This document shows positions 837-13,107 of a stretch of DNA of 13,250 nt, piece after piece. This DNA comes from Candidatus Termititenax sp. GTDB taxonomy: Bacteria > Margulisbacteria > Riflemargulisbacteria > GWF2-35-9 > DYQY01. Position numbers and translations under genes: made by a program. Each line of letters starts with the position of its first letter. Positions within the stretch are counted from its first letter, which is position 1. The notes under the pieces are model-generated. The model was not told the origin of the DNA. It saw only the letters and a program-made list of their open reading frames with translations, and did no database searches. Where the stretch lies: NCBI GenBank assembly GCA_020719045.1, contig DYQY01000012.1, forward strand, positions 31,352-44,601, written 5' to 3'.

Positions 837-983
837 CTAATATTTTCTTAGCAATTTTGTATATTGTTTAGAAGATTCATTGGAAACTATTATCAATTGT
901 TCTATCAGAGAATTGTAGAAACAATCAACATCAGATAATGTAAAATAACATAATCGTGAAATCTTCTTACTAATAGTAATGTT
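837..983 (-). pseudogene. displaced C-terminal coding segment of the nucleotidyltransferase gene
   Basis: Reading the minus strand from 983 gives 48 open codons to the TAG at 839-837, starting N-I-T-I-S-K-K-I-S-R and ending K-L-L-R-K-Y. This frame joins the upstream nucleotidyltransferase frame if one A is restored to the short A run at about 982-983, giving a protein of about 271 aa. The segment has ordinary protein-like composition, whereas the called tail after residue 223 is short. I infer a 1-nt deletion (real decay or an assembly error), not an independent gene: there is no start codon, and an in-frame stop lies just upstream. Confidence 0.5.
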
Positions 984-1651
984 CTATTTAAATCTTCTAG
1001 CCGAGCTTCACTTAACCCAATTAGTCCTCTAAGTTGCAACCATCTATTCCAATGTAAAATTAATCTTGCTTTTGCAATATAGTAATACGGAGTTAATACA
1101 TTCTTTGCTTTGCAACTATCAAATTCATTTTCCAATCTCATGATTGTAATATGCATTAACTCATGAATTTTTCTATTTGCTAATTGCTTTAATAATAATT
1201 CAATATGATTCTTGAATGTATCATTAAAACAATCGTCGTTGGAAAATATTTGTCCCATTAACAATATGTTCCTTATTGTTTCATTAGATTTAATAGTACT
1301 AACAATATATTTATAATCGAAAGCATTCTCTTGTTTTAATTCAAAAGAAAAATTATGCATTTTTTTATTAGGAACTAAAAATGCAAACTTGTCACAATGT
1401 AATTCTTCGTCAGACTCATCTGTTCTTACAAAGAAATAATCAACATCTGAGCTTATTCCATAAACACCAAAGCAAAGACTTCCCCCTATAAATAATCCAG
1501 TGTTTACTGGTAATTCATAAGAGTGCCTTTTAATTTTTGATATAACAAAATCTTTAATTTCAAAAATTGTTGAAACGTATTCTGATTCATTTTTGCACAA
1601 AGACAGTAAATCTTTCTGAAAAAATGATTCTGATATAACCTTAAAAAGCAT
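905..1651 (-). CDS. nucleotidyltransferase-fold protein, probably frameshifted near its C-terminus
   Basis: A 248-aa protein with the hallmark of the DNA polymerase beta-type nucleotidyltransferase superfamily: G56-G57-S58, then about ten residues, then D69-V-D71, which should bind metal and NTP. A possible third carboxylate is E104 in the strand F-S-F-E-L. Residues from about 130 onward look helical, as in nucleotidyltransferases with an accessory helical (HEPN-like or KNTase C-terminal-like) domain. The ATG at 1651-1649 overlaps the TAA of the preceding gene by one base (TAATG), so translation is probably coupled. Substrate and family are not recognisable; an antibiotic-modifying, toxin or tRNA/protein-modifying role cannot be told apart. 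After residue 223 the frame is probably wrong: a 1-nt indel near 982 would restore a 48-codon extension ending at 837. The gene may therefore be inactive, or the base call may be an error. Confidence 0.7.
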   Translation of the reverse strand: MLFKVISESFFQKDLLSLCKNESEYVSTIFEIKDFVISKIKRHSYELPVNTGLFIGGSLCFGVYGISSDVDYFFVRTDESDEELHCDKFAFLVPNKKMHNFSFELKQENAFDYKYIVSTIKSNETIRNILLMGQIFSNDDCFNDTFKNHIELLLKQLANRKIHELMHITIMRLENEFDSCKAKNVLTPYYYIAKARLILHWNRWLQLRGLIGLSEARLEDLNRTLLLVRRFHDYVILHYLMLIVSTIL

Positions 1652-2121
1652 TATTGGTTGTTAAATAACACTTTATTAAAATCTGACTCTAAATTAGGAT
1701 CATTTAGTTTACTAATAAATGCCTGTTTATACTTATCATCTTTATTGTAAAAATAAATACCAACAAGAAACTCAGCTATTTTAATTGCATTTTTAGTCGA
1801 ATAAATTATCTCCGTATATTCTGCACTATCTATTACCAAGACGGAGACTGCTTCTTCTCCTACATTATCTGACATATTACTTCCGTGTGAAATACGTTTT
1901 TCCCATTGAGTTGAGTAATGAGATTCTTCTGGATGGAATATGCTTATTGATTTAAACTTATTAACAGCTAACAGAATTACATCTTCATCATCTCTTACAT
2001 CTTTTCCTGCAAGTTTTAATATTTCTATTACATCTGAACCTGAAACTTTGTTTAAAGCAATTGTAGCTAATTCTTTATCGCTTCGCTCTAGTGATGAGTG
2101 ATAGGTGATATGTGACTTCAC
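1651..2121 (-). CDS. unknown 156-aa protein, first gene of a pair with the nucleotidyltransferase
   Basis: I do not recognise this family. The protein is soluble-looking and rather acidic, with alternating helical (about 15-60, 110-150) and strand-like (about 88-106) parts, no signal peptide and no obvious catalytic motif. The only available start is a GTG at 2121-2119, with an in-frame TGA two codons upstream and no clear Shine-Dalgarno site. The first ten or so codons are made of a 7-bp tandem repeat array (2091-2136), so the N-terminus is either repeat-derived or the original 5' end has been lost. The next conserved-looking stretch starts at S-D-K-E-L-A. The 1-nt stop/start overlap with the downstream nucleotidyltransferase argues for joint function, perhaps a toxin-antitoxin-like or defence pair. 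That role is inference from context only. Confidence 0.6.
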   Translation of the reverse strand: MKSHITYHSSLERSDKELATIALNKVSGSDVIEILKLAGKDVRDDEDVILLAVNKFKSISIFHPEESHYSTQWEKRISHGSNMSDNVGEEAVSVLVIDSAEYTEIIYSTKNAIKIAEFLVGIYFYNKDDKYKQAFISKLNDPNLESDFNKVLFNNQ

Positions 2122-2136
2122 TGCTCACTGTTCACC
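2091..2136. repeat. heptanucleotide tandem array with a polarity switch
   Basis: Read on the plus strand, four successive 7-bp units begin GTGA (2091, 2098, 2105, 2112). They are followed in the same 7-bp phase by units beginning CAC (2119, 2126, and a partial one at 2133), which are the reverse-complement type. The array runs about 46 bp and straddles the GTG start of the minus-strand 156-aa gene. It resembles the short tandemly repeated heptamer class known from some bacteria such as cyanobacteria; that comparison is by type only. Confidence 0.75.
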
Positions 2137-2216
2137 ATTTCCGAACTTATGAGGTTACGCAATTACGAAGTTACGTATCTTCGTCGCTTCGTTGGTTCGT
2201 AGCTTCGGTCGTTCAA
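2137..2216. repeat. degenerate octanucleotide tandem array
   Basis: Directly after the heptamers, about ten 8-bp units follow in constant phase, each with a core like TTACG or CTTCG at unit positions 3-7. The TTACG cores are at 2155, 2163 and 2171; the CTTCG-like cores are at 2179, 2187, 2195 (GTTCG) and 2203. The first units (2137, 2145) and the last (2209) are more degenerate. CGAAGTTACG (2166-2175) and CGTAGCTTCG (2198-2207) also form a near-perfect inverted repeat, so the array could fold. Confidence 0.65.
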
Positions 2217-2364
2217 ACCATCCAATATATCGTTCCACCAAAAAGATATTCCCACTTTTATCTATTGAAAAATACTATTGCGACGTTGAGTTTTGTGGAT
2301 TGATGAGTTTTTGACGTTTTTTTATGCTTAATTGGCTCCATTCCATTAAGTGAACTTGGTTGTG

Positions 2365-2382
2365 TATACCCAAAAGGGTATA
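2365..2382. promoter_or_regulatory. upstream palindromic operator of the hipBST operon
   Basis: A perfect palindrome TATACCC-AAAA-GGGTATA. It closely matches the second site at 2425-2444 and resembles in design the HipB operators of E. coli (TATCC-N8-GGATA). The centres of the two sites are 61 bp apart, about six helical turns, which would allow two HipB dimers on the same DNA face or a loop. Confidence 0.75.
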
Positions 2383-2397
2383 AATTGTCTGGATTAA

Positions 2398-2426
2398 TTG
2401 AAATTATGAGTTAAATATGTTAAATT
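2398..2426 (+). promoter_or_regulatory. candidate hipB promoter
   Basis: TTGAAA (2398-2403), 17 bp, then TAAATT (2421-2426). It lies between the two palindromic operators, and the -10 box touches the second, so HipB binding would block polymerase. The -10 box is weak, and a different -10 in this AT-rich stretch is possible. Confidence 0.45.
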
Positions 2427-2444
2427 ATACCCGAAAGGTTATAA
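2425..2444. promoter_or_regulatory. downstream operator covering the hipB ribosome binding site
   Basis: TTATACCC-GAAA-GGTTATAA is palindromic at 7 of 8 arm positions and ends one base before the hipB ATG. The AAAGG inside it (2434-2438) is the likely Shine-Dalgarno site, so operator and ribosome binding site coincide. Confidence 0.7.
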
Positions 2445-2445
2445 T

Positions 2446-2646
2446 ATGTTAGCAAAGTACCTAAAAAATAAAAGAAAAATTAATAACATTACACAAGAAG
2501 AACTTGCTATAAGTGCTGGAGTTGGTTTGAGGTTCATTAGAGATATCGAGCAGGGCAAGAAAACTTTACGTATGGATAAAGTTAATCAAGTGCTAAAAGT
2601 TTTTGGTGCTGAGTTGACTCCAATGGATAATAGAAGTTTGCAATGA
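2446..2646 (+). CDS. hipB: HipB-like antitoxin and autorepressor
   Basis: A 66-aa protein consisting of one XRE/HipB-type helix-turn-helix domain: T-Q-E-E-L-A (about 17-22), the recognition-helix region S-A-G-V-G-L-R-F-I-R-D-I-E-Q-G-K (about 23-38) and the closing helix M-D-K-V-N-Q-V-L-K-V-F-G-A-E-L. This is the pattern of HipB/Y4mF family antitoxins. As first gene of a hipBST-type operon it should bind the two flanking palindromes as a dimer and repress its own transcription while helping to neutralise HipT. The ATG at 2446 has an AAAGG site 7 nt upstream inside the operator. Its stop overlaps the start of hipS (ATGA at 2643-2646). Confidence 0.9.
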   Translation: MLAKYLKNKRKINNITQEELAISAGVGLRFIRDIEQGKKTLRMDKVNQVLKVFGAELTPMDNRSLQ

Positions 2647-2960
2647 GAAAAGCAAAAGTTTTTGTTAATGAATTTTTTGCTGGAATGCTTATAGAAACTG
2701 ATGAAGGTTATTTTTTTAACTATGATGAAGATTATTATAACAGTGATTTAACTGCTGTAAGTCTCACATTACCAAAAACAAAAAAGCAATATTATTCCAA
2801 AGAATTTTTTAATTTTTTTAGAGGACTTTTACAAGAAGGTTGGTTAAAGGAATTGTCTGAAGATATTTTAAGGATTGATAAACAGGATGAGTTTTTGCTT
2901 TTAATTAAGAATGGTTCTGATTGTGTTGGTAATGTTTCAGTCGTGGAGTTTCTGGAATGA
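2643..2960 (+). CDS. hipS: HipS-like protein (free HipA N-terminal subdomain)
   Basis: A 105-aa protein matching the HipA N-terminal subdomain 1 (Couple_hipA): K-V-F-V-N-E-F-F-A-G-M-L at the start, F-F-N-Y-D-E-D-Y-Y at about 24-32, then S-L-T-L-P (40-44), F-N-F-F-R-G-L-L-Q-E-G-W (56-67), and a C-terminal D-C-V-G-N-V-S-V motif. In normal HipA this domain is fused to the kinase; here it is a separate gene with 4-nt overlaps on both sides. This is the gene order and size of HipBST in enteropathogenic E. coli O127:H6, where HipS, not HipB, is the main antitoxin of HipT. W67 in the Q-E-G-W motif is a candidate for the residue that contacts the kinase active site, but that is inference. Confidence 0.87.
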   Translation: MRKAKVFVNEFFAGMLIETDEGYFFNYDEDYYNSDLTAVSLTLPKTKKQYYSKEFFNFFRGLLQEGWLKELSEDILRIDKQDEFLLLIKNGSDCVGNVSVVEFLE

Positions 2961-3793
2961 AGGATGATTTGCTTGTTTTGAATTTTTCTTCTAATGATAT
3001 TTCACAAATAGTCACAGATAATCTTATAGGCAGAATCTCTATTTCAGGTGTTCAGAGGAAAATCTCTTTAGTGAAAAGTGGTGATACTTTTATTCCTGTT
3101 GATACTGCTGGAGAGTATATTTTAAAGCCACTAGATAATAATTGGGATCAATTACCAGAGAATGAAAAGTTATGTATGGACTTGGCATCTTTTTTTAATC
3201 TGAAAGTTCCAGAGAATTTTCTAGTTAGATTAGCGGAAGGTTCTATTGCTTATGTCGTTAAAAGATTTGATAGAAATGGACTTAGTAAATATCCAGTCGA
3301 AGATTTTTGTCAAATTTTGGATTTATCTAATAAGTCTAAATATAGTGGTTCTTATGAAAAAATAATTAAAGCATTGGAACAGTATTCTTCGGCTCCAGGT
3401 CTTGATAAGATAATGTTGTTTAGGTCACTTATATTTAATTTCCTAATTTGTAATAATGATGCTCATTATAAGAATTATTCTTTACTTAATACTGGTAATG
3501 GCTACAGATTGAGTCCGTTTTATGACCTAGTTAATACATCCTTAGTTTTAAAGAATAATAATGAGGAAGTTGCACTTACAATGAATGGGAAAAGAAGCAA
3601 TCTAAGAAAGGAAGATATGTTATCTTTTGCAGAATATGCAGAAATACCATCTAAGGTGATAGCTATAGAGTTTGAGAGTATCAGAAGTACTAGAAATAAA
3701 TTTATAGAATGCATTAGTAATTCTTTTCTTAGTAAAAAAAATAAAGATAAATTTGTTGAATTTTATTTGAGTAGATATGATAGATTGATTTAG
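2957..3793 (+). CDS. hipT: HipT-like serine/threonine kinase toxin
   Basis: A 278-aa HipA-family kinase lacking the N-terminal subdomain, which is supplied by hipS upstream. Visible kinase features: Gly-rich loop R-I-S28-I-S30-G-V-Q-R-K, lysine K57 in E-Y-I-L-K-P, catalytic loop N-N-D168-A-H-Y-K172-N173, and metal-binding D190 in P-F-Y-D-L. The S-I-S motif corresponds to the two autophosphorylated serines of E. coli HipT (S57 and S59); canonical HipA has a different loop. E. coli HipT phosphorylates tryptophanyl-tRNA synthetase and halts translation; the same target here is inference. The protein is shorter than E. coli HipT, mainly at the N-terminus. The ATG lies in the ATGA overlap with hipS, with GGAG 8 nt upstream. 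Confidence 0.88.
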   Translation: MKDDLLVLNFSSNDISQIVTDNLIGRISISGVQRKISLVKSGDTFIPVDTAGEYILKPLDNNWDQLPENEKLCMDLASFFNLKVPENFLVRLAEGSIAYVVKRFDRNGLSKYPVEDFCQILDLSNKSKYSGSYEKIIKALEQYSSAPGLDKIMLFRSLIFNFLICNNDAHYKNYSLLNTGNGYRLSPFYDLVNTSLVLKNNNEEVALTMNGKRSNLRKEDMLSFAEYAEIPSKVIAIEFESIRSTRNKFIECISNSFLSKKNKDKFVEFYLSRYDRLI

Positions 3794-4156: not shown

Positions 4157-5296
4157 ATGAAAAAAATCATCAAAGTAGTAATCGTCTGCGTAGTATTAGC
4201 TGTTCTTTTATATTTACTAGTTTCTTTGCAGGTAAAGCAGGAAATATCTTCAGGTATATCAACTCCAGATTTTATGATGGAGCTTTCTGGTGTTCGTTTA
4301 AGGGGATGGAATAAACAAGTCTTGGCTTGGGAGATGAAGTCTGCAAATGCCTACTATTATGATAAAAACACTTTGGTTTTGACAGGGGTTAATGAAGGAT
4401 ACTTTCTGGATAGTACTGGTAAGAATTTGATAGATGAATTCTTGGTTTCTACTGTTAATGCAAATATTATAAATAAAGAGTTTGTTCTTAATAATGTTAG
4501 ACTTAAACTTCATTCTGATATTAGTTCAAATGTGTTTTTGGCGGCAGAGAGATTTAGTTATCTAGATGGTTCTTTGTATACCGACATGCCATACATTCTA
4601 CAAGTAAATGATTGGCAGGTAACCTCAGGCAAAATGACTTATAATTTAAAAGAAGATAAGATGGAGTTTGCTGACAATCTGCGGATTAATAAAGGTAAAA
4701 GCTCTCTGAGAAGTAACCATGGTGTCTATTCCCCTGTAAGCAATTCTGTTGTGTTAAGTGGAGAGGTTGAGGTTAGTCATAACATTTTACACAAAGGTAA
4801 AGAATATTTACTTAATATATTTTCTGATTCAGTTGATATTTTGCTGCTTAAAGATGAACCAGATTTAACGTTTAATGATGGGATGATTTTTAGGTTCGGT
4901 GAAGATGTTTTATATGCAAGTTACGGTAACTATAATCCTGATAAAAAGATTCTTAAGATGACTGATACTGTAATTAGAATTGATGACGGTTCAGAAATTC
5001 TAGCCAATATTAAAGCTGAGGATATAAAGGGGAGTATTATTAAGGGGCATAAAGTAGATGTTTTGTTTGATGAAAAGAAGATTATTCTTAGTGAAATAGT
5101 TACATATGAAAGAGGAACAAGAAAGATTGTTGCTAATAGTGGGGTATATGATGTAAATGCTGGACTACTTTATTTGCGAGGAGGAGTTGCTATAAATGAG
5201 GGAACAAAATCCATTTATTCAGATGAAGTAACTGTTGATGTTAAAAAAGATGTTATTTTAGCTAAAGGAAAGGTTAAGACAAAAATATCAATATAA
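4157..5296 (+). CDS. LptC/OstA-like lipopolysaccharide transport protein
   Basis: A 379-aa protein with one N-terminal membrane segment (about 4-25, V-V-I-V-C-V-V-L-A-V-L-L-Y-L-L-V) and a long periplasmic part rich in short beta strands. The early part (about 35-150, with M-E-L-S-G-V and later W-E-M-K-S-A-N-A-Y-Y) fits LptC. The later repeats (about 150-375, of the type Y-N-L-K-E-D-K-M-E-F and L-Y-L-R-G-G-V-A-I) fit OstA/LptA beta-jellyroll strands that shield lipid A on its way to the outer membrane. E. coli uses separate LptC and LptA proteins, each about half this length, so this may be a combined bridge protein anchored in the inner membrane. LptB, F, G and D are not in the window. A single-gene unit with its own promoter is likely. 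Confidence 0.7.
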   Translation: MKKIIKVVIVCVVLAVLLYLLVSLQVKQEISSGISTPDFMMELSGVRLRGWNKQVLAWEMKSANAYYYDKNTLVLTGVNEGYFLDSTGKNLIDEFLVSTVNANIINKEFVLNNVRLKLHSDISSNVFLAAERFSYLDGSLYTDMPYILQVNDWQVTSGKMTYNLKEDKMEFADNLRINKGKSSLRSNHGVYSPVSNSVVLSGEVEVSHNILHKGKEYLLNIFSDSVDILLLKDEPDLTFNDGMIFRFGEDVLYASYGNYNPDKKILKMTDTVIRIDDGSEILANIKAEDIKGSIIKGHKVDVLFDEKKIILSEIVTYERGTRKIVANSGVYDVNAGLLYLRGGVAINEGTKSIYSDEVTVDVKKDVILAKGKVKTKISI

Positions 5297-5358: not shown

Positions 5359-5387
5359 TTGTGTAGAACCCTTTTCATATATATAAT
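5359..5387 (+). promoter_or_regulatory. promoter of the MerR-DegV gene, probably leaderless
   Basis: TTGTGT (5359-5364), 17 bp, perfect TATAAT (5382-5387), then 6 nt to the ATG at 5394. No Shine-Dalgarno site is seen. MerR-type self-regulated promoters often have 19-20 bp spacers with a dyad between the boxes; neither is seen here. Confidence 0.65.
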
Positions 5388-5393
5388 AAAAGT

Positions 5394-6509
5394 ATGTCTA
5401 ATATGAAAAAAAGCTATAAAATTCAAGACCTAGTAGATATGTTTGGCTTAACTACTCGAACCCTAAGATTTTGGGAGGAAAAGGGATTACTTAATTCGCT
5501 TTTAAGGGTTACAGGCAAGCGTAGAGTTTACGGTGAAGATGTTATTAAGAGGATAAAGGACATTAAGAGTTATAAGGCTAGAGGTTTGTCCTTAGATGAT
5601 ATTAAAATTCAGATAGATAAAAAAGAAAAAAAGAGTAAAGTATTAAAGAATCCCATAAGGATTATTATTGGAAGTTCTTCTGGTATAGAAGAAGCAAATA
5701 TGACTAAGTATGAAATAGACCTTATCCCTTCTTATATTTTGTTAGATGGCAAAAGATTCGTTGATGGGGTTAATATTTCTGAGAATAATATTCAGGAAAT
5801 AGAGTTTACAGAACTGACAACTGAGCCACCAACAGTAGATGACTACATTTATATGTATTCAGAGATGGCAGAAGAAGGTGCGGAGGAAATTATTTCCTTA
5901 CATCCAAGTGAGTCTTATTGTGGATCTCTTGCTAATGCTAGAAAAGCTCTTGAGAGAGCAAAAGGACTAAAAGTTCATTTGTTAGATACATCGTCTTATG
6001 GACAGATTGCTGAACTATTGGCAATCATAGCTAGAGACAAGCTTAGTAAAGGTATGACTGTGGATAAAGTAGTCAAATATCTTAAGCAGCTTATTGCTGA
6101 TCATTCATCCTTTTGGGTTGCCTCTTCTATGTTGAATATGACTAATCTTGGTTTAGTTAATGTGGATTTTAAGAAGATTGTTAATCCACTATTTAGGTCA
6201 ACATTGAATTATCATCCACTTCTTAAGATGAATAATCAAATAGATGAATATCAATTAATTAGCAGAGCTAATGGATTAATAGATGCCGTAGATGATTTGA
6301 TAGCTCAGATTAAAGAAGCACATTCAAGTAGCAAGTTTCCTGTTAAGATGATGGGGGTTTATTATACTTGTGATAAATCTAAATTAAATGCTTTAGTTTT
6401 GTTTTTGAAAGATAAAGGAATTCCAGTTTTCTGGCAGAAAAGCAATTTTTATATGTCAGCAACTCTTGGTACTGAATCAGTAGTAGTAAATATTTTATAC
6501 GAAAGGTAA
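5394..6509 (+). CDS. MerR-family regulator fused to a DegV fatty-acid-binding-like domain
   Basis: A 371-aa fusion. Residues about 5-75 are a MerR winged helix-turn-helix: Y-K-I-Q-D-L-V-D-M-F-G-L-T-T-R-T-L-R-F-W-E-E-K-G-L-L, then R-R-V-Y-G-E-D-V and K-A-R-G-L-S-L-D-D-I. A lysine-rich linker follows. Residues about 88-371 follow the DegV (FakB-type) fold: D-L-I-P-S-Y-I-L-L-D-G-K-R-F-V-D-G-V (109-126), T142-T-E-P-P-T in place of the usual T-S-Q-P-S, and H170-P-S-E-S-Y-C-G-S in place of H-x-S-S-x-L-S-G-T. The usual N-terminal T-D-S-S motif reads G-S-S-S, and the C-terminal H-x-G-P-G motif is gone (S-A-T-L-G). FakB proteins carry fatty acids to the kinase FakA; here the domain more likely senses a lipid for the MerR part. 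Being 6 nt upstream of the TPR gene, it probably heads the envelope operon. Confidence 0.82.
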   Translation: MSNMKKSYKIQDLVDMFGLTTRTLRFWEEKGLLNSLLRVTGKRRVYGEDVIKRIKDIKSYKARGLSLDDIKIQIDKKEKKSKVLKNPIRIIIGSSSGIEEANMTKYEIDLIPSYILLDGKRFVDGVNISENNIQEIEFTELTTEPPTVDDYIYMYSEMAEEGAEEIISLHPSESYCGSLANARKALERAKGLKVHLLDTSSYGQIAELLAIIARDKLSKGMTVDKVVKYLKQLIADHSSFWVASSMLNMTNLGLVNVDFKKIVNPLFRSTLNYHPLLKMNNQIDEYQLISRANGLIDAVDDLIAQIKEAHSSSKFPVKMMGVYYTCDKSKLNALVLFLKDKGIPVFWQKSNFYMSATLGTESVVVNILYER

Positions 6510-6515
6510 GCTTAA

Positions 6516-8300
6516 ATGGTAGGAAAGTGGGGGGTAGTTGTTCTTTTGCTTGGGGCAACCTATGTCTTTCCTAATGAACTTATCGGCGACTTATACCAAA
6601 GAAATAATTTAGTTCATATAAATCTTCTTAGAAACTCTATTTTTTTTGATCAGAACAGTAATGCAAGTGAGCTAAGTGTTTTAGAGAACTATCACATTGG
6701 AAACTATAGTGCATTTATTAAAAGCTATGAAAGCACGTATAAAGATAAAATAAATGCTGATAATCAGCTAATGTTTTATTATTTAATTTCAAAATACAAA
6801 ATTAAAGAGTATTCGTCATTAAAAAATATTTATCCAAGCATTAATGCAGAAATGCTTTCAATAGATAATTGGAGAGATTTACAGAAAGTAAAGGCTATAA
6901 GCTATTATTTAGATGGCAATGAAGCGTCTTTGTCAAAACTTGTTTTAGATGTGAAGGCAGATTCTCGTAGCAACCAGGAACTTATGGATGTCTTAGCCGA
7001 TGTTTATAAGCTTGAACTAGCCAGTAATGGTCTTAATGCAACAGCGAATGTAAATGTGGATTATTATGATGCTTGGACAAACTTAAAAGAAGGCAAGTAT
7101 GGTATTGCAAAGGGTTATTTTGATAAAGCTAAAATGGACATTACTGAAAGTGATTTGAGATGTGAGTTCATTGAGTATGGTCTTGGTGTTGCTTTGTATG
7201 CGTCTGGTAACTATCAAGAGGCAGTGGAGAAATTTCAGAAAAAGTATACTTCGGCAGAGCTTGCTCAGTCTGTAGCTTTTTTTAAGATACTTGCTGCATT
7301 TGATAATAAAAATTATAGCGAGGTTGTTACTCTTTCTGCAGAATTCCTAGCTGATAAACCATCAAATTATGTTTCCCAAACTAACTATTTAAGAGGCGTA
7401 AGCTTATATTCATTAGGAGACAAAGAAAAGGCAAAGAAAGTACTTGAGGAAGTGAAGGATTTTAGCGCATTTGTGAAGTATATTTTGGCAGAAATTTACT
7501 ATGATGAAGGTTCTTATGCGAAGGCTAAGACATATTATCAAGGAGCTAAGTCAAGTAATGATGTTTTAAACAGTTATGTGAATTATGGGTTAGGTTGGGC
7601 AACTTTTAAGTTAGCTCAATACAAAGAAGCTGAGTCAATATTTGATAAAAACCAAGCTAATGAGAATCTATCAGAAAATATTAAACTTGATATGATGCTT
7701 AAGTCTGCAGATTCTTCCTATAATTCTGGAAGTTATAAAGATGCAGCAAAGAAATATATAGAGCTTCTTAATGTTTTATCTAAGAACAAAGAAGGTAATA
7801 GAAGTTTATACAACCAAAATATTTATAATTTAGTTACTGTTTATATGAAGTTAAAGGATTTCAAGAAAGCAAATGAAATATTGGAGAAATATTTTCCAGA
7901 AGTTAAAAACGATAGAGAAAAAGTATTAATTAGAACCTTAATTGGTAACAATAATTATCAGCTTAAGGATTACAAATTAGCTGCAAAAGTGTTTGAGGAG
8001 ATTTTAGTCGTTTATAGTGCTTATAAAGATGAAGATATATACATCTCCTTAGCTAATAGTTATTTTAATGATAAAGAGTATGGTAGAGCCTTAGTCGTAT
8101 ATCAAGATTATTTTAAGGAGTATCCAAAAGGCGAGAAAGATATGGATGCAAAATACGGTATGGTTCAAACATATTATCATTTGAACCAACTTGAGTCAGC
8201 TTTAGCTTTGGCAAAAGATGTTGATGAGACTTATGGTATCGGTTTGGTTAAAGAAATAGAAGGAAAGATAAAGTTTAAAAAGGAGACAGTAATTGAATAA
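6516..8300 (+). CDS. secreted TPR-repeat protein
   Basis: A 594-aa protein with an N-terminal hydrophobic segment (about 5-17, G-V-V-V-L-L-L-G-A-T-Y-V-F) that should act as a signal peptide, followed by tetratricopeptide repeats. Clear units with the G/A/Y spacing of TPRs are near residues 226 (A-S-G-N-Y-Q-E-A-V-E-K-F), 293, 325 (D-E-G-S-Y-A-K-A-K-T-Y-Y), 360, 403 (S-G-S-Y-K-D-A-A-K-K-Y), 442, 481 and 518 (N-D-K-E-Y-G-R-A-L-V-V-Y). The N-terminal third is helical but less regular. TPR arrays are protein-binding scaffolds; the partner here is likely the barrel encoded next, whose TTG start lies 8 nt inside this gene. The GAAAGG at 6501-6506 serves as ribosome binding site. Exact function is unknown. 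Confidence 0.8.
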   Translation: MVGKWGVVVLLLGATYVFPNELIGDLYQRNNLVHINLLRNSIFFDQNSNASELSVLENYHIGNYSAFIKSYESTYKDKINADNQLMFYYLISKYKIKEYSSLKNIYPSINAEMLSIDNWRDLQKVKAISYYLDGNEASLSKLVLDVKADSRSNQELMDVLADVYKLELASNGLNATANVNVDYYDAWTNLKEGKYGIAKGYFDKAKMDITESDLRCEFIEYGLGVALYASGNYQEAVEKFQKKYTSAELAQSVAFFKILAAFDNKNYSEVVTLSAEFLADKPSNYVSQTNYLRGVSLYSLGDKEKAKKVLEEVKDFSAFVKYILAEIYYDEGSYAKAKTYYQGAKSSNDVLNSYVNYGLGWATFKLAQYKEAESIFDKNQANENLSENIKLDMMLKSADSSYNSGSYKDAAKKYIELLNVLSKNKEGNRSLYNQNIYNLVTVYMKLKDFKKANEILEKYFPEVKNDREKVLIRTLIGNNNYQLKDYKLAAKVFEEILVVYSAYKDEDIYISLANSYFNDKEYGRALVVYQDYFKEYPKGEKDMDAKYGMVQTYYHLNQLESALALAKDVDETYGIGLVKEIEGKIKFKKETVIE

Positions 8301-9774
8301 AAGCTTGTTTTTTGTGTTAATTGTTTTTTTGGTTTCTGTGGGTTTTTCGGCTGAACAAGACAGTCAGTTTCTTTTGCCTGATTTATTTGTAACAGCAAAA
8401 GATGAACGAGGTTTGGATAGTTCTGCTAAGATAGATTTAAATCTGAGGACAGGACTTAGAATCCAAGATAACATCGTTGATGGATCACTACAAAAGGACA
8501 TGGTCTATGTTGAGAAGCTTAAGTTAAACGATAATTTAAATAACGCTATGTATAATGATGTAAGCGTTTTTCTTGGTATGCCTTCTTTATATGGAATAAA
8601 CTTTAATCATGGCTATGTTATTTCAAATATTCCATATTTTTTAAGGTTTAATCGTTATGATAATTTGTCTTTATACGGAGTCGCAAATGGTGGTGGTTCT
8701 TTCTTTGTTGCTTTAAAGCCGGATAAAGAGAATGGAATATCTTTTATTTCAAAGCAGAAAAGGATGGATGGAAGTCAGCTAGATGTTCTTGGAATTGGGT
8801 ATAAGCGTTTAGTCGATAATCCTATAAGTTATTCTGGTGTGATGCTTAACGCAAACAGTTATGCTGGTAATGCTGGGCTAACTATGACTGAACATAATCT
8901 TGATATTAATTTAGGTAAAGTTAGTTTGCTTAATAAAGAAATGGATTCAGCTGTATCTTTAATGTATCTTGGTTCAAAGGTTAATAGCCTGTTTTTTGTG
9001 GATTTAGGATTGAATAATGCAATAAATACGTCCAAAGATAGTTTAGATTTAGGTTTACAGCTTTGGTCAAATGCTGGGATTCAGAAGTTTAATATTTTGG
9101 TTGATTATAAGAATTCATTTATGTACGAGTCATTAGCGTTTATGACAAGAACACAGTTGGTTCATGATCCTGTGAATGTTAATAAATTATTTGCAACAGA
9201 TTTTATTGAAATGGATGATGCTGTGATTAAGTGTGATGAAAGATTTTCTTTTAGTGTTTCTGTAAATGGAATATTAAAAGACCAGAAAGAAACATTTTTT
9301 ATGGATATGAACTTCTACAATTATAAGAATGTATTAGATGATATAGAACCACTTGTTGATAAGTATTACTCATACACAGGTATTTCAGATCTGATTATTG
9401 CAAATACTGGTGTTTTATTTCCAGAAGTGAAAGTAGCTTCAGAAACTGTAAGTGTTAAAGTGCAGTTACCAATAGTTTCTAAGAAGGTTCCTAATTTGTT
9501 TAGTAAGTTAATCGAGGTTACTTATGCAAAAGAAATCTTTGAGGGTAATCTGAGTATAGTTAGTAGTTACTGCTTAAGAGAGTTTGGCAGAACAACTGGC
9601 GATGATTATAAGAATGCGTTATTAGATGTAGATGCTTCTTATGAGAAAGCTATTTCTAATGATTGGTCATATGGGCTTTATATGGAAAACTTATTTTCTG
9701 CAGGTAGTCATTATTTGCCTGATAGGAACTTTAGAGATACTGTGCTTTATGGTAAACTAAAAGTGATCTTTTAG
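8293..9774 (+). CDS. outer-membrane beta-barrel protein with a TonB-box-like N-terminus
   Basis: A 493-aa protein starting with TTG (8293), supported by AGGAG at 8281-8285, 7 nt upstream; there is no ATG start nearby. Residues 1-20 are a classic signal peptide ending G-F-S-A, with cleavage before E21. Just after it lies L-P-D-L-F-V-T-A-K (28-36), which resembles the TonB box and its context (D/E-x-V-V-T-A) of TonB-dependent receptors. The rest has alternating amphipathic strands and ends in an aromatic residue (Y-G-K-L-K-V-I-F), the usual signal for barrel insertion. I cannot see a plug domain with its conserved motifs, and the protein is short for a TonB-dependent receptor (usually above 600 aa). 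It may be a plugless TonB client. The location just before exbB-exbD-tonB supports this. The substrate is unknown. Confidence 0.7.
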   Translation: MNKSLFFVLIVFLVSVGFSAEQDSQFLLPDLFVTAKDERGLDSSAKIDLNLRTGLRIQDNIVDGSLQKDMVYVEKLKLNDNLNNAMYNDVSVFLGMPSLYGINFNHGYVISNIPYFLRFNRYDNLSLYGVANGGGSFFVALKPDKENGISFISKQKRMDGSQLDVLGIGYKRLVDNPISYSGVMLNANSYAGNAGLTMTEHNLDINLGKVSLLNKEMDSAVSLMYLGSKVNSLFFVDLGLNNAINTSKDSLDLGLQLWSNAGIQKFNILVDYKNSFMYESLAFMTRTQLVHDPVNVNKLFATDFIEMDDAVIKCDERFSFSVSVNGILKDQKETFFMDMNFYNYKNVLDDIEPLVDKYYSYTGISDLIIANTGVLFPEVKVASETVSVKVQLPIVSKKVPNLFSKLIEVTYAKEIFEGNLSIVSSYCLREFGRTTGDDYKNALLDVDASYEKAISNDWSYGLYMENLFSAGSHYLPDRNFRDTVLYGKLKVIF

Positions 9775-9783
9775 TAAGGTCAC

Positions 9784-9850
9784 CGAGTGATTTTGCGTAT
9801 CTCGATACAATTGCTTCGCAATCACTCGATAAGCGCAAAATTGTATCGAG
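9784..9850. repeat. nested palindromic element between the barrel gene and exbB
   Basis: The main stem has 12-bp perfect arms, CTCGATACAATT (9801-9812) and AATTGTATCGAG (9839-9850). Competing pairings exist: ATTTTGCG (9790-9797) with CGCAAAAT (9834-9841), CGAGTGAT (9784-9791) with ATCACTCG (9821-9828), and ATTGC with GCAAT (9810-9822). It can therefore adopt several exclusive folds in the intercistronic RNA. Confidence 0.75.
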
Positions 9851-9866
9851 GTGATGTTTGCAGATG

Positions 9867-9888
9867 GTCATTCCCGAGCAGTCGGGAT
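9867..9888. repeat. short palindrome before exbB
   Basis: TCCCGA (9872-9877) and TCGGGA (9882-9887) form a 6-bp stem with loop GCAG. Its first 12 bases are identical to 693-704, marking it as a short form of that interspersed repeat. It lies about 10 nt before the exbB Shine-Dalgarno site (AGGAGG, 9897-9902). Confidence 0.6.
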
Positions 9889-9907
9889 TTAAATTAAGGA
9901 GGAAAAA

Positions 9908-10537
9908 ATGTTAGAGATTATTTTAAAGGGCGGGTTCATGATATATATACTATTCTTTTTCTCAATAATGGGGATAGCTATTTTCGTTGAAAGGCTTATT
10001 TTTCTTAGGAATTCTATGAATAAATCTAATGATTTTTTGCCTGCAATTAAAGAATTATATAATACAGAAGGTGTTAAATCTGCTTATCGTTATTGTAATC
10101 TACATCCTTCTGTAATCTCTTCAGTTTTTAAGGTTGGGCTACGTAATGCCAATAAAAGCAGCTCAGAGCTGAGAGCTATTATCGAGAGTACAGGTCAATT
10201 AGAGATTAGAAAGCTAGAACGTAACTTGATATTACTAGCTACACTTGCTGGTGTTGCTCCTTTGCTTGGGTTCTTGGGAACAGTTACAGGTATGATCAAA
10301 GCTTTCCAGGAGATAGAGAATTTGGGTGGAAATGTAAATGCATCAGTTCTAGCTGGTGGTATTTGGGAAGCGCTTATTACTACAGCAGTAGGGCTTGGAG
10401 TTGCGATTGTTTTACACTTGGCATACAACTATTTAATAAATATTATTGAGAAACATATTCTGGATGTAGAAGAGAATTCCATTGAGTTATTAGGGTTCCT
10501 AACAAAGAAGGAAGATAATGAAATCCCCACGGCGTAG
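9908..10537 (+). CDS. exbB: ExbB/TolQ-family proton channel protein
   Basis: A 209-aa inner-membrane protein of the MotA/TolQ/ExbB family, of normal length. It has three membrane segments: about 10-32, 109-131 and 153-177. Signature residues are visible: P118-L-L-G-F-L-G-T-V-T-G-M in segment 2, and G-I-W-E154-A-L-I-T-T-A-V-G-L in segment 3, where E154 matches the key glutamate of E. coli ExbB (E176). It forms the pentameric ring around ExbD that uses proton-motive force to drive TonB. The ATG at 9908 has a strong AGGAGG 5 nt upstream, unlike the other genes of the run, so exbB may be translated at a higher rate, as expected from the excess of ExbB over ExbD and TonB. It overlaps exbD by 20 nt. 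A TolQ role is less likely because tonB, not tolA/tolB, follows. Confidence 0.9.
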   Translation: MLEIILKGGFMIYILFFFSIMGIAIFVERLIFLRNSMNKSNDFLPAIKELYNTEGVKSAYRYCNLHPSVISSVFKVGLRNANKSSSELRAIIESTGQLEIRKLERNLILLATLAGVAPLLGFLGTVTGMIKAFQEIENLGGNVNASVLAGGIWEALITTAVGLGVAIVLHLAYNYLINIIEKHILDVEENSIELLGFLTKKEDNEIPTA

Positions 10538-10925
10538 AAATTATTTAACTTCTATAGAAAGTACAGCACTTACTGACATAGTATTTTTACTACTTATTTA
10601 CTTTATGTTAACCTCATCATTTGTTAATCAAGTTGGTGTTAATGTTGATTTGCCAGATATGAAGAAGCCTCCAATTAACAAGATTCAGAATCCAATATCA
10701 ATCTCTGTTAATGGAGATATGCAAGTTTTCCTCAATGAAGAACTGGTTTTAGATGAAGAGTTAGTATCTAAGCTTACAGCAAAGCTTGCAACCGTAGAGG
10801 ATAAGATGGTTGTTTTTAGACCAGATAAAAGCATCAAGGTTGAGAAACTTATTACTGTAATGGATTTGGCTAGTATGGCAGGTGCAACAAAGTTGGTTGT
10901 TGCTACCAAAGCTTTTGAGGACTAA
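10518..10925 (+). CDS. exbD: ExbD/TolR-family proton channel subunit
   Basis: A 135-aa protein with a short basic cytoplasmic start (K-S-P-R-R-R), one membrane segment (about 18-37) with the essential aspartate D20 in T-A-L-T-D-I-V-F-L-L-L, and a periplasmic domain of about 95 residues typical of ExbD/TolR (V-D-L-P at about 43, I-S-V-N-G, and a closing A-T-K-A). D20 matches D25 of E. coli ExbD, the protonatable residue. The start lies inside the end of exbB, with AAGGAAG upstream; its TAA shares one base with the ATG of tonB (TAATG), so translation of exbB, exbD and tonB is coupled. Confidence 0.9.
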   Translation: MKSPRRRNYLTSIESTALTDIVFLLLIYFMLTSSFVNQVGVNVDLPDMKKPPINKIQNPISISVNGDMQVFLNEELVLDEELVSKLTAKLATVEDKMVVFRPDKSIKVEKLITVMDLASMAGATKLVVATKAFED

Positions 10926-11707
10926 TGAACCATAGGTTTGTAAGATCTTTAGTAGTATCGATTTTTGCACATTTATTGTTGTTTTTACTTATGTACTTTA
11001 TTAGGACAAGTATTGCTATCCCTGAAAAAGAAGTTTATCGAGAAGTTTCCTTTGTAGTCGAACGTGATTTTCCTGAGATGTTGGAAGAAACGCAAACTGT
11101 TTTGGCTCAAGAAGAATTAGTGAAGGCTAAAGAAGAACCTGTTAAGAACGAGATACCACCTAAACCTAAAGAGAAGGTAGAGAAGCCAAAGGAAGTTGCT
11201 GGTCCTATTAAGCAAATTGAGCTACCCAAAGTTAAAGCTAAGCAGCCTGATCCTGTTGTTCCTAATAGTCTAGAACAGAAGAAAGAGGATTCTTCTTCTA
11301 AGATTTTCGTGCCTGAGCAAAAGGTTGAAAATGATAAGAAGGCTAAAGAAAACGTAGTTAAAGATGTTCCTGGTGGTGAGTTTGGGAATTCTGTTGTGGA
11401 TATTAGACCTTCAAGGAATATGGAGATATTTGGGCCTATTGTAAATAGAAGTATAGTGTATTCTGAGATACCAGAATACCCTGATTGGGCAAAGTCTCGT
11501 GGGATAGAAGCAGAAGTCAGGATGAAGTTTTGGGTAGAACCAAGTGGCGAAGTAGTTAATATAGATGTTATTCAGAAGTCTGGATACCTGAAGTTAGACC
11601 TGCTTGCAAAGAATAGTTTAGCAAAATGGAAATTTACTCCTCTTGACGCAAGTGTGCCACAGATTAAGCAATGGGGAGAGATTGTAGTAAGGTTCGTGCT
11701 CTATTAG
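10925..11707 (+). CDS. tonB: TonB energy transducer
   Basis: A 260-aa protein with the three TonB parts. Residues about 8-28 are a single membrane anchor with the S12-x-x-x-H16 motif (S-I-F-A-H) that in E. coli TonB contacts ExbB/ExbD. Residues about 50-145 are a Pro/Lys/Glu-rich periplasmic linker (such as P-P-K-P-K-E-K-V-E-K-P-K). Residues about 178-260 are the C-terminal domain, with P-E-Y-P-D-W-A-K-S-R-G-I-E-A-E-V and later G-Y-L-K-L-D and W-K-F-T-P-L, which binds TonB boxes of outer-membrane clients. This is the last gene of the run; no strong terminator follows before the AbiE promoter, which begins right after its stop codon. Confidence 0.9.
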   Translation: MNHRFVRSLVVSIFAHLLLFLLMYFIRTSIAIPEKEVYREVSFVVERDFPEMLEETQTVLAQEELVKAKEEPVKNEIPPKPKEKVEKPKEVAGPIKQIELPKVKAKQPDPVVPNSLEQKKEDSSSKIFVPEQKVENDKKAKENVVKDVPGGEFGNSVVDIRPSRNMEIFGPIVNRSIVYSEIPEYPDWAKSRGIEAEVRMKFWVEPSGEVVNIDVIQKSGYLKLDLLAKNSLAKWKFTPLDASVPQIKQWGEIVVRFVLY

Positions 11708-11737
11708 TTGACATTTCATTAATTTATTAAATATAAT
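11708..11737 (+). promoter_or_regulatory. consensus promoter of the abiE pair, leaderless
   Basis: Perfect TTGACA (11708-11713), 18 bp, perfect TATAAT (11732-11737), then 6 nt to the ATG at 11744. The -35 box begins directly after the tonB stop. This is the strongest promoter visible in the window, and there is no Shine-Dalgarno site. Confidence 0.8.
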
Positions 11738-11750
11738 AATAAAATGAAAT
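11713..11750. promoter_or_regulatory. candidate AbiEi operator over the abiE promoter
   Basis: ATTTCATT (11713-11720) and its exact reverse complement AATGAAAT (11743-11750) flank the -10 box symmetrically and cover the end of the -35 box and the start codon. AbiEi antitoxins repress their own promoters by binding inverted repeats, so this is a fitting site; the AT-rich context makes a chance match possible. Confidence 0.45.
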
Positions 11751-12343
11751 ATAATGATTTGGATTTAGCAATTAAGACACCATATTTTTCAAAAAAAGAT
11801 TTAATACTCAAAGATCTGAAAATTTATGATTATCAATTAACAGATTGGTGTAATAAGAAGTATTTAATTAAAGTAAAGAATGGTTTGTATCTTTTTAGTA
11901 ATAGACAGAATTATCTGCAATTGGAAGAGTTATCACAATTAATATATGAACCAAGCTATATAAGCCTGGAAAGTGCATTAAGATATTATAATTTTATTCC
12001 AGAAATGGTCTATGCTATTACCTGTGTTACTACAAAAGCTAACAGGAATTTTCAAAATTTAATAGGTAACTATATCTACAGTCACTTAAAGCCTGAATTA
12101 TTTTTTGGATATAACCCAATTAAAACAAAGTATGGTTATTATTATATTGCTGAACCTGAAAAAGCGATTTTAGACTATATTTATTTGAAGCTATCTCAGA
12201 TTAATAATGATGATGAATTCAATGAGCTAAGATTAAATATATCAGAGATATCTAGCACTATTAATAAAAAGAAGTTTACTCAATACCTCAACGTATATAA
12301 TGTTAAGAAGATGAGTGAGGTTGCAAAATTATGCTTACCATAG
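11744..12343 (+). CDS. abiEi: AbiEi-family type IV antitoxin and repressor
   Basis: A 199-aa protein. Residues about 12-52 form a winged helix-turn-helix (Y-F-S-K-K-D-L-I-L-K-D-L, then L-I-K-V-K-N-G-L-Y-L-F), the standard N-terminus of AbiEi-type antitoxins. The C-terminal part has the Y-I-S-L-E-S-A-L-R-Y-Y motif (about 75-85) and A-E-P-E-K-A-I-L-D-Y-I-Y (about 136-147), both typical of this family. AbiEi represses the operon through its helix-turn-helix domain and counters the toxin through its C-terminal domain without stable binding. Length fits the short form. The 3' end overlaps the toxin gene by 13 nt. The start at 11744 lies 6 nt after TATAAT, so the mRNA is probably leaderless. Confidence 0.85.
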   Translation: MKYNDLDLAIKTPYFSKKDLILKDLKIYDYQLTDWCNKKYLIKVKNGLYLFSNRQNYLQLEELSQLIYEPSYISLESALRYYNFIPEMVYAITCVTTKANRNFQNLIGNYIYSHLKPELFFGYNPIKTKYGYYYIAEPEKAILDYIYLKLSQINNDDEFNELRLNISEISSTINKKKFTQYLNVYNVKKMSEVAKLCLP

Positions 12344-13107
12344 ATCAAATATATAATTATTTTGAATTTAATACTGTAAAAAGAAACCCAAGGTCAGTAA
12401 TGGTGGAGTATCTGCAGTATGAAATATTGGATTCGATGTTTAAGTTTGACAAAGCTAAGCACCTTAGCTTCATAGGTGGAACTGCTGTTAGAATCGTGGC
12501 TGGGAGTAATAGATTCTCTGAAGATTTAGATTTTGACAATTTTGGTCTAACATATTTTGAATTCGAAAGTTTATTAAATGATGTGCTAAGAGATATGAAA
12601 TTAAAAGGATTTGAGATTGAGTATAAGTTTGTAGAGAAAGGTGCTTGGCATTGTTATATTAAGTTCCCTGAGATTTTATATAAATTTGGACTTTCAAGCA
12701 ATGATAAAGAAAGAATTTTAATAAGGATAGATATGCAGGAAAAGACTAAGCTGTATGAGCCTTCGATTATTATCCTCAACAAGTTTGGTATATTTAGAAA
12801 GATATTATCAGCATCATTTGAAGTGTTGCTTTCTCAAAAATTGATCACAATTTTACAAAGAAAAAGAGAAAAGGGTAGGGATTTATACGATGTTTCATAT
12901 TTATATGGATTAACCAAAGTAAATGAAGCTTATATTCATAATTATTTAAATATTACGATGGAAAAATTTTATGAAAAATTGAAATTGAGGATAAATGAAA
13001 TTGATTTAAAGGAATTAGCAAAAGATGTTGAGCCATTTTTAATCAATCCAGCTGAAGTAGATAGAGTTCTTTTTTTTAGAGAATTTTTAGAAAGCTTCCT
13101 CAAGTAG
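12331..13107 (+). CDS. abiEii: AbiEii-family nucleotidyltransferase toxin
   Basis: A 258-aa protein of the AbiEii/AbiGii (DUF1814) nucleotidyltransferase family. Motifs: G49-G50-T51-A-V-R, then R-F-S-E-D65-L-D67-F-D (metal ligands), a third carboxylate in R-I-D134-M-Q, and the late motif K170-L-I-T-I-L-Q-R177 followed by G-R183-D184-L-Y-D187. All expected catalytic residues are present, so the toxin should be active. Family members modify tRNA or other nucleic-acid substrates and cause growth arrest, giving phage resistance by abortive infection. The ATG overlaps the end of abiEi, so translation is coupled. Length is close to that of short AbiEii proteins (250-300 aa). Confidence 0.9.
   Translation: MLTIDQIYNYFEFNTVKRNPRSVMVEYLQYEILDSMFKFDKAKHLSFIGGTAVRIVAGSNRFSEDLDFDNFGLTYFEFESLLNDVLRDMKLKGFEIEYKFVEKGAWHCYIKFPEILYKFGLSSNDKERILIRIDMQEKTKLYEPSIIILNKFGIFRKILSASFEVLLSQKLITILQRKREKGRDLYDVSYLYGLTKVNEAYIHNYLNITMEKFYEKLKLRINEIDLKELAKDVEPFLINPAEVDRVLFFREFLESFLK

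Follow-up and report, generated by a model that had tools for sequence, protein, structure and literature searches.

The MerR-DegV fusion encoded in this stretch of Candidatus Termititenax DNA is a real, old and conserved protein of the Margulisbacteria, and on balance it is probably a one-component, lipid-responsive transcription regulator. We infer its DNA binding, its ligand (a fatty acid or a related lipid), the direction of its response and its targets. Few bacterial fatty-acid carriers have been studied as thoroughly as the DegV/FakB proteins, yet to our knowledge DegV has not been described before as the sensor domain of a MerR-type one-component regulator, and none of the MerR proteins described so far, as far as we know, has a DegV domain. 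The first-pass annotation of the DNA likewise knew of no regulator with this architecture, and no description of a MerR-DegV protein was found in the open-access literature, most subscription journals lying outside the scope of that search; throughout the literature searched, DegV/FakB proteins appear only as carriers or as stand-alone proteins. Nor do we know of any fatty-acid regulator in the Margulisbacteria, a phylum near the Cyanobacteria. If our reading is correct, a DegV domain acting as a sensor within a transcription factor would represent a new bacterial way of matching gene expression to lipid supply. It would also provide a natural experiment in which the kinase has gone and the kinase-facing residues have decayed while the lipid-facing residues are retained in many lineages.

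The fusion is a single open frame without internal stop at positions 5394-6509 on the forward strand of the window, by which we mean the whole 13,250-nucleotide stretch that was analysed, and it encodes 371 amino acids. Judging from the sequence, translation probably begins at 5403 (M4), because the equivalent of 5403 is the only possible start in the congener G001. The MerR winged helix-turn-helix (residues 8-72; 5415-5609) matches the Pfam model MerR_1 (PF13411) with E 6.2e-15 and 55.5 bits against a cut-off of 21.6. A short linker (residues 73-85; 5610-5648), placed from predicted secondary structure, leads to the DegV/FakB (EDD) domain (residues 86-371; 5649-6506), in which PF02645 covers residues 88-342 with E 6.1e-24 and 85.2 bits against a cut-off of 27. 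Among the NCBIfam models, the general DegV family TIGR00762 scores 100.4 bits, just above its cut-off of 99.7, and the FakB1 model NF038249 scores 51.2 bits, far under its cut-off of 350. An AlphaFold2 model of the single chain, built on a 15-sequence alignment, has a mean pLDDT of 84.7 and a pTM of 0.83. Its residues from about 86 to 371 match DegV/FakB crystal structures with Z scores of 27-31 over 255-276 residues, and Foldseek E values for this part reach down to 3.5e-24; the DegV domain is therefore complete to the C-terminus. Residues 7-84 align with the MerR-family structures CadR, PbrR691 and TnrA (Z about 12), and nine MerR residues (I10, T20, R25, L32, R38, G41, R44, L67 and I70) are invariant in 15 fused proteins. 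The last MerR helix spans residues 67-80 and is followed by a strand at 88-93; the long antiparallel MerR dimerisation helix is absent from the single-chain model.

Pfam, NCBIfam and the structural model thus agree on the fusion of a MerR helix-turn-helix to a DegV fold that the first-pass annotation had proposed, and its estimate of the extent of the fold (about 88-371) lies close to the structural match. The domain search that it suggested, in which a missing DegV match was to count against it, returned both domains above their cut-offs. A chance match is ruled out by the E values (6e-15 for MerR and 6e-24 for DegV) and by structural Z scores of about 30. The occurrence of one open frame across 24 genomes rules out an assembly artefact or a read-through of two genes, and assembly error is excluded because the neighbours of the fusion differ between families. 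Amino-acid-changing differences between the congeners are scarce (pN 0.15 compared with pS 0.78; identity 89% in the MerR part and 71% in the DegV part), which argues that both domains are under purifying selection.

When 74 Margulisbacteria genomes were searched with a profile of the fusion, 24 of them, representing 13 families, gave full-length matches with E values between 2e-150 and 4e-76, and more diverged MerR-headed relatives occur in at least four further families of the phylum; the same profile search found no fusion in families f5, f6, f8, f11 and f14. Throughout the order to which the window belongs, the fusion is the sole DegV protein of each genome in which a DegV was found; the window's own genome is 1.75 Mb and 99% complete. 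The census of the architecture that had been suggested at the outset found it within the phylum but not in the two samples taken from other phyla. In a sample of 396 genomes from an actinobacterial phylum, 262 had a match, and those listed were DegV-only, with no fusion; no fusion was seen in 395 Desulfuromonadales-related genomes, a search run without a positive control. The plasmid matches listed were DegV-only and viral contigs gave no match. The samples from outside the phylum did not include Bacillota, and absence beyond the Margulisbacteria applies to the groups that were sampled. When the DegV domains were placed in an unrooted tree, the stand-alone proteins formed one clade (support 99/98), and two changes are needed to explain the distribution of fused and stand-alone labels, an arrangement that is compatible with a single ancient fusion event. 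The fused proteins nearest to stand-alone DegV/FakB are those of genomes G007 and G032. A second type of DegV protein, of about 500-590 amino acids, was seen in several Margulisbacteria families (L047:406-2166, L043:532-2268, L042, L080, L049 and L048); its first 300 residues or so have no significant match in Pfam and lead into a diverged DegV domain, it forms a clade of its own, and FakA is absent from the genomes that encode it.

The task of FakB proteins is to bring fatty acids to FakA, a kinase. Two arginines of FakB, reported to be "completely conserved", face this task: Arg173 is required for phosphorylation and Arg205 for binding to FakA and to the membrane (PMC8892158; PMC9136124). 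When the window protein is aligned in S. aureus FakB1 numbering, these positions hold L and N, respectively. Arg173 is lost in 23 of the 24 fusions, being kept in G032, and Arg205 is kept in just one, the diverged protein of G046, with N, G, E, D or K in its place elsewhere; four solved DegV/FakB proteins used as controls have both arginines. The kinase is missing too. The FakA profile TIGR03599 had no match in 73 of the 74 Margulisbacteria genomes, the window's included, in a search that was positive in seven control genomes. The single FakA-like match, in G007, is below the cut-off, resembles the first 297 of the 530 FakA positions and is of the DAK2 type. A remnant that resembles DegV/FakA_C and contains a stop comes after this gene (L029:1462-2400 and L050, G007:C60:24609-25923), and the FakA there has the appearance of a broken, frameshifted or truncated one. 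PlsX is present in 36 of 38 relatives. As far as can be read from the proteins themselves, the general trait of the fusions is the loss of the kinase-facing arginines and not the loss of motifs.

The lipid-facing side has a more varied history. The carboxylate of the fatty acid is held in FakB by a network of Thr62, Ser95, Ser171 and His270 (PMC8892158; PMC9136124). In the window protein Thr62, whose role is described in PMC8892158, is kept as T143 (within T142-T143, 5817-5822), Ser95 has become C176 (5919-5921), Ser171 has become L and His270 has become T. The D8-S-T motif reads G-S-S and the A-H270-L-G motif reads A-T-L-G. Two of these changes, Asp8 to Gly and Ser95 to Cys, belong to the window's genus, the latter to that genus only, while His270 is Thr in the window species and the congener still has His. 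In the neighbouring family the Thr62, Ser95 and His270 positions are still occupied by T, by S, and by H or Y, respectively; Ser95 is kept in 18 of the 24 fusions, and most fused relatives retain DSTA or DSTS together with Ser95 and have either His or Tyr at position 270, with stronger alteration of the carboxylate residues in families f4, f25 and f26. Because most other fused relatives retain most of these motifs, their loss in the window's genus is, on the alignment, a late and local change. The first-pass annotation was correct that the T-D-S-S and G-x-H motifs are lost in this protein, but the loss is specific to the genus or species and not a family trait, so it does not mark a switch from carrier to sensor; in the window protein it weakens the case for fatty-acid binding instead of strengthening it. 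Of the pocket positions that were said to be partly kept, T143 is indeed the equivalent of Thr62, but S172 and S174 are not the carboxylate serine, whose place is taken by C176. Since the carboxylate residues are partly altered, the window species may use a ligand other than a free fatty acid, and its protein may have lost the means of holding such an acid by the carboxylate.

Gene order provides a suggestive, though not universal, link between the fusion and fatty-acid synthesis. It emerged unexpectedly from a search for plsX: in two genomes, each from a different family, plsX shares a contig with the fusion. The fusion stands directly upstream of yceD-rpmF-plsX in both G007 (family f3) and G032 (family f15). 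About 40 bases separate the end of the fusion from yceD in G032, where rpmF and plsX follow; the distance in G007 is about 280 bases, and plsX is followed there by fabH, an acyl-CoA dehydrogenase gene, etf, fabD, fabG and acpP. This neighbourhood is found in two of the 13 families, and not in the window or in the other families examined. Most other families have the fusion near rpsB-tsf-dgt-trxA and/or an aspartate aminotransferase gene, and family f4 has it beside proA and holB-like and ricT-like genes, these names coming from a reading of the sequences. The neighbours in the window are concerned with the cell envelope. An LptC/OstA-like gene on the same strand (4157-5296; PF06835, 38.3 bits) adjoins the fusion in five of six genomes of the order, and the fusion is followed, also on the forward strand, by genes for a TPR protein, a probable outer-membrane protein, ExbB, ExbD and TonB (6516-11707; identified from Pfam and from the gene order in six genomes). 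The TPR gene begins a few bases after the fusion, or overlaps it, in all six fusion-holding genomes of the order, and the outer-membrane and TonB-system genes come after it. We rejected the idea that these neighbours point to machinery for secretion or uptake, as position alone ties the DegV protein to them. The probable outer-membrane protein (8293-9774; 493 amino acids), which has no Pfam match and lies between the TPR gene and exbB throughout the order, has a TonB-box-like stretch near its N-terminus, LPDLFVTAKD.

The absence of FakA, the loss of the arginines, the presence of a single DegV protein per genome in the order and the position of two relatives upstream of plsX-fab genes favour a regulator over a carrier; it is by these features, and not by motif loss, that the proposed switch from carrier to sensor gains ground. 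The reading as a lipid switch draws on the missing kinase partner together with the two relatives directly before fatty-acid synthesis genes. We envisage that the N-terminal MerR winged helix would bind promoter DNA and that the C-terminal DegV domain, formerly a fatty-acid-binding domain of the FakB type whose role as a carrier to FakA has been lost, would now serve as the sensor. The filling or emptying of the lipid pocket would alter the pairing or the orientation of the DNA-binding heads and so switch transcription. Ancestrally, the fusion perhaps controlled the yceD-rpmF-plsX-fab genes, in a role comparable to that of FapR in Bacillus; in the window's order the gene may also control the envelope cluster (the LptC/OstA-like gene, the TPR gene, the outer-membrane protein gene and ExbB-ExbD-TonB), and the response would feed back on lipid or envelope genes. 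More tentatively, with the chances a little against it, a new family of fatty-acid-sensing regulators could have replaced the Fak carrier-kinase system in the Margulisbacteria, having originally controlled plsX-fab, the shuttle turning into a sensor after the loss of the kinase.

Parts of this proposal have parallels in known systems. In Bacillus, fapR stands directly upstream of plsX-fab genes; FapR has a hotdog fold and senses malonyl-CoA, and FabT of Streptococcus is of the MarR type. The likeness to FapR consists of the gene position in two of the fusion families and of the possibility that the fusion senses lipid status; it is functional and not one of homology, as neither FapR nor FabT shares a MerR or a DegV domain with the fusion. 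The recruitment of an EDD-fold protein from metabolism into transcription control has a precedent in Lactococcus lactis, where DhaQ, a paralogue of DhaK, has dihydroxyacetone as its ligand and acts with the TetR-type partner DhaS as co-activator of an operon. That system uses two proteins whereas the fusion unites MerR and DegV in a single chain. The DhaK/DhaQ relatives of the EDD fold appear in our list of structural matches, among them 2iu4 (Z 14.7), which is DhaQ of L. lactis. Like CadR, PbrR691 and regulators of the BmrR/Mta type, the fusion has a MerR winged helix at its N-terminus and an effector domain at its C-terminus, but it is without the long dimerisation helix and its effector is DegV rather than a metal-binding or GyrI-like domain. 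It resembles the DegV/FakB proteins (PF02645; FakB1 and FakB2 of S. aureus and DegV of B. subtilis) in its complete DegV fold and its Thr62 equivalent, and many fused relatives share the Ser95 and His270 positions as well; it differs from them in that a DNA-binding domain is attached, FakA is missing from the genome, Arg173 and Arg205 are replaced, and the score lies well below the FakB1 cut-off. TnrA, GlnR and BldC have a MerR-like winged helix without a coiled coil or dimerisation helix (PMC5859096). They share this feature with the fusion but have no DegV domain, and the lack of the long helix suggests that the pairing of the fusion's heads depends on the DegV domain or takes place on DNA, in the manner of TnrA/GlnR or BldC.

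The same missing helix, together with the decay of the pocket in some lineages, could be read differently, with the DegV part sensing something other than a fatty acid or serving as a module for oligomerisation or protein contact, its fold kept and its lipid pocket not. The protein would then be a MerR-type regulator comparable to the co-activator DhaQ, or to BldC and TnrA, which do without the coiled coil. The changes of His270, Ser95 and Asp8 in the window's genus, the stronger alterations in f4, f25 and f26, the long branch of f1 in the DegV tree (1.7 changes per site) and the existence of DhaK/DhaQ among the EDD-fold relatives all lean that way. Set against this are the DSTA or DSTS motif, Ser95 and the His or Tyr at 270 that most fused relatives retain, and the two relatives at a fab operon, and we regard such a non-lipid role as rather unlikely, though deserving of serious consideration. 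It is very unlikely indeed that the protein is still a carrier of the FakB type that has acquired a DNA-binding domain and feeds PlsX/PlsY through an unrecognised kinase: the complete DegV fold, the presence of PlsX and the DAK2-type gene of G007, like the first 297 positions of FakA, are what such a carrier would call for, but 73 of the 74 genomes have no FakA, both arginines are replaced, and the FakB1 model is far from being reached.

The tight linkage in the window's order raises the further question of whether the protein is a local regulator of the TPR, outer-membrane, ExbBD and TonB genes only, responding to the lipid state of the envelope and having no link with fatty-acid synthesis in that order. 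The adjoining or overlapping TPR gene in six of six genomes, with outer-membrane and TonB-system genes next, is as such a regulator would have it. The neighbours in other families are quite different, however, the linkage may reflect the inheritance of an operon, and comparisons of inverted repeats and promoters identified no operator, making this an improbable account. Returning to the lipid-responsive regulator, the upstream DNA offers a possible promoter for the fusion gene itself, TTGTGT-17-TATAAT on the forward strand at 5359-5387, a weak candidate from a consensus reading only that the promoter scan did not list; promoter-like matches in the region are no commoner than in shuffled sequences. 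Inverted repeats upstream of the gene did not exceed those in shuffles, and in a six-genome comparison of the fusion promoter with that of yceD, neither did shared 14-mers or palindromes. Operators of the MerR family lie within promoters that have a spacer of 19-20 bases; the promoter-like sites seen here have spacers of 17 bases, and no operator was recognised. In all four neighbouring-family genomes compared (L084-L087) a stretch resembling TTTAACGTTAA lies 17 bases ahead of a TA-rich, -10-like box; three of them have it overlapping the final part of the gene before, and in L084 it is intergenic. Either a -35 box or an operator is conceivable, and the 17-base spacing fits a -35 box.

A stretch of about 3 kb (905-3793) separates the tldD/pmbA genes from the LptC-like gene in the window's species and contains a pair of nucleotidyltransferase-like genes on the minus strand and a two-part HipA (Couple_hipA at 2643-2960 and HipA_C at 2957-3793); this stretch is absent from the congener G001 and is probably a recently gained toxin-type island. 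Right behind tonB, at 11708-13107, is an AbiE-like type IV toxin-antitoxin pair, composed of a gene without a Pfam match in the AbiEi position (11744-12343) and an AbiEii gene (PF08843; 12331-13107), with a perfect sigma-70 promoter ahead of it at 11708-11737 (TTGACA-18-TATAAT).
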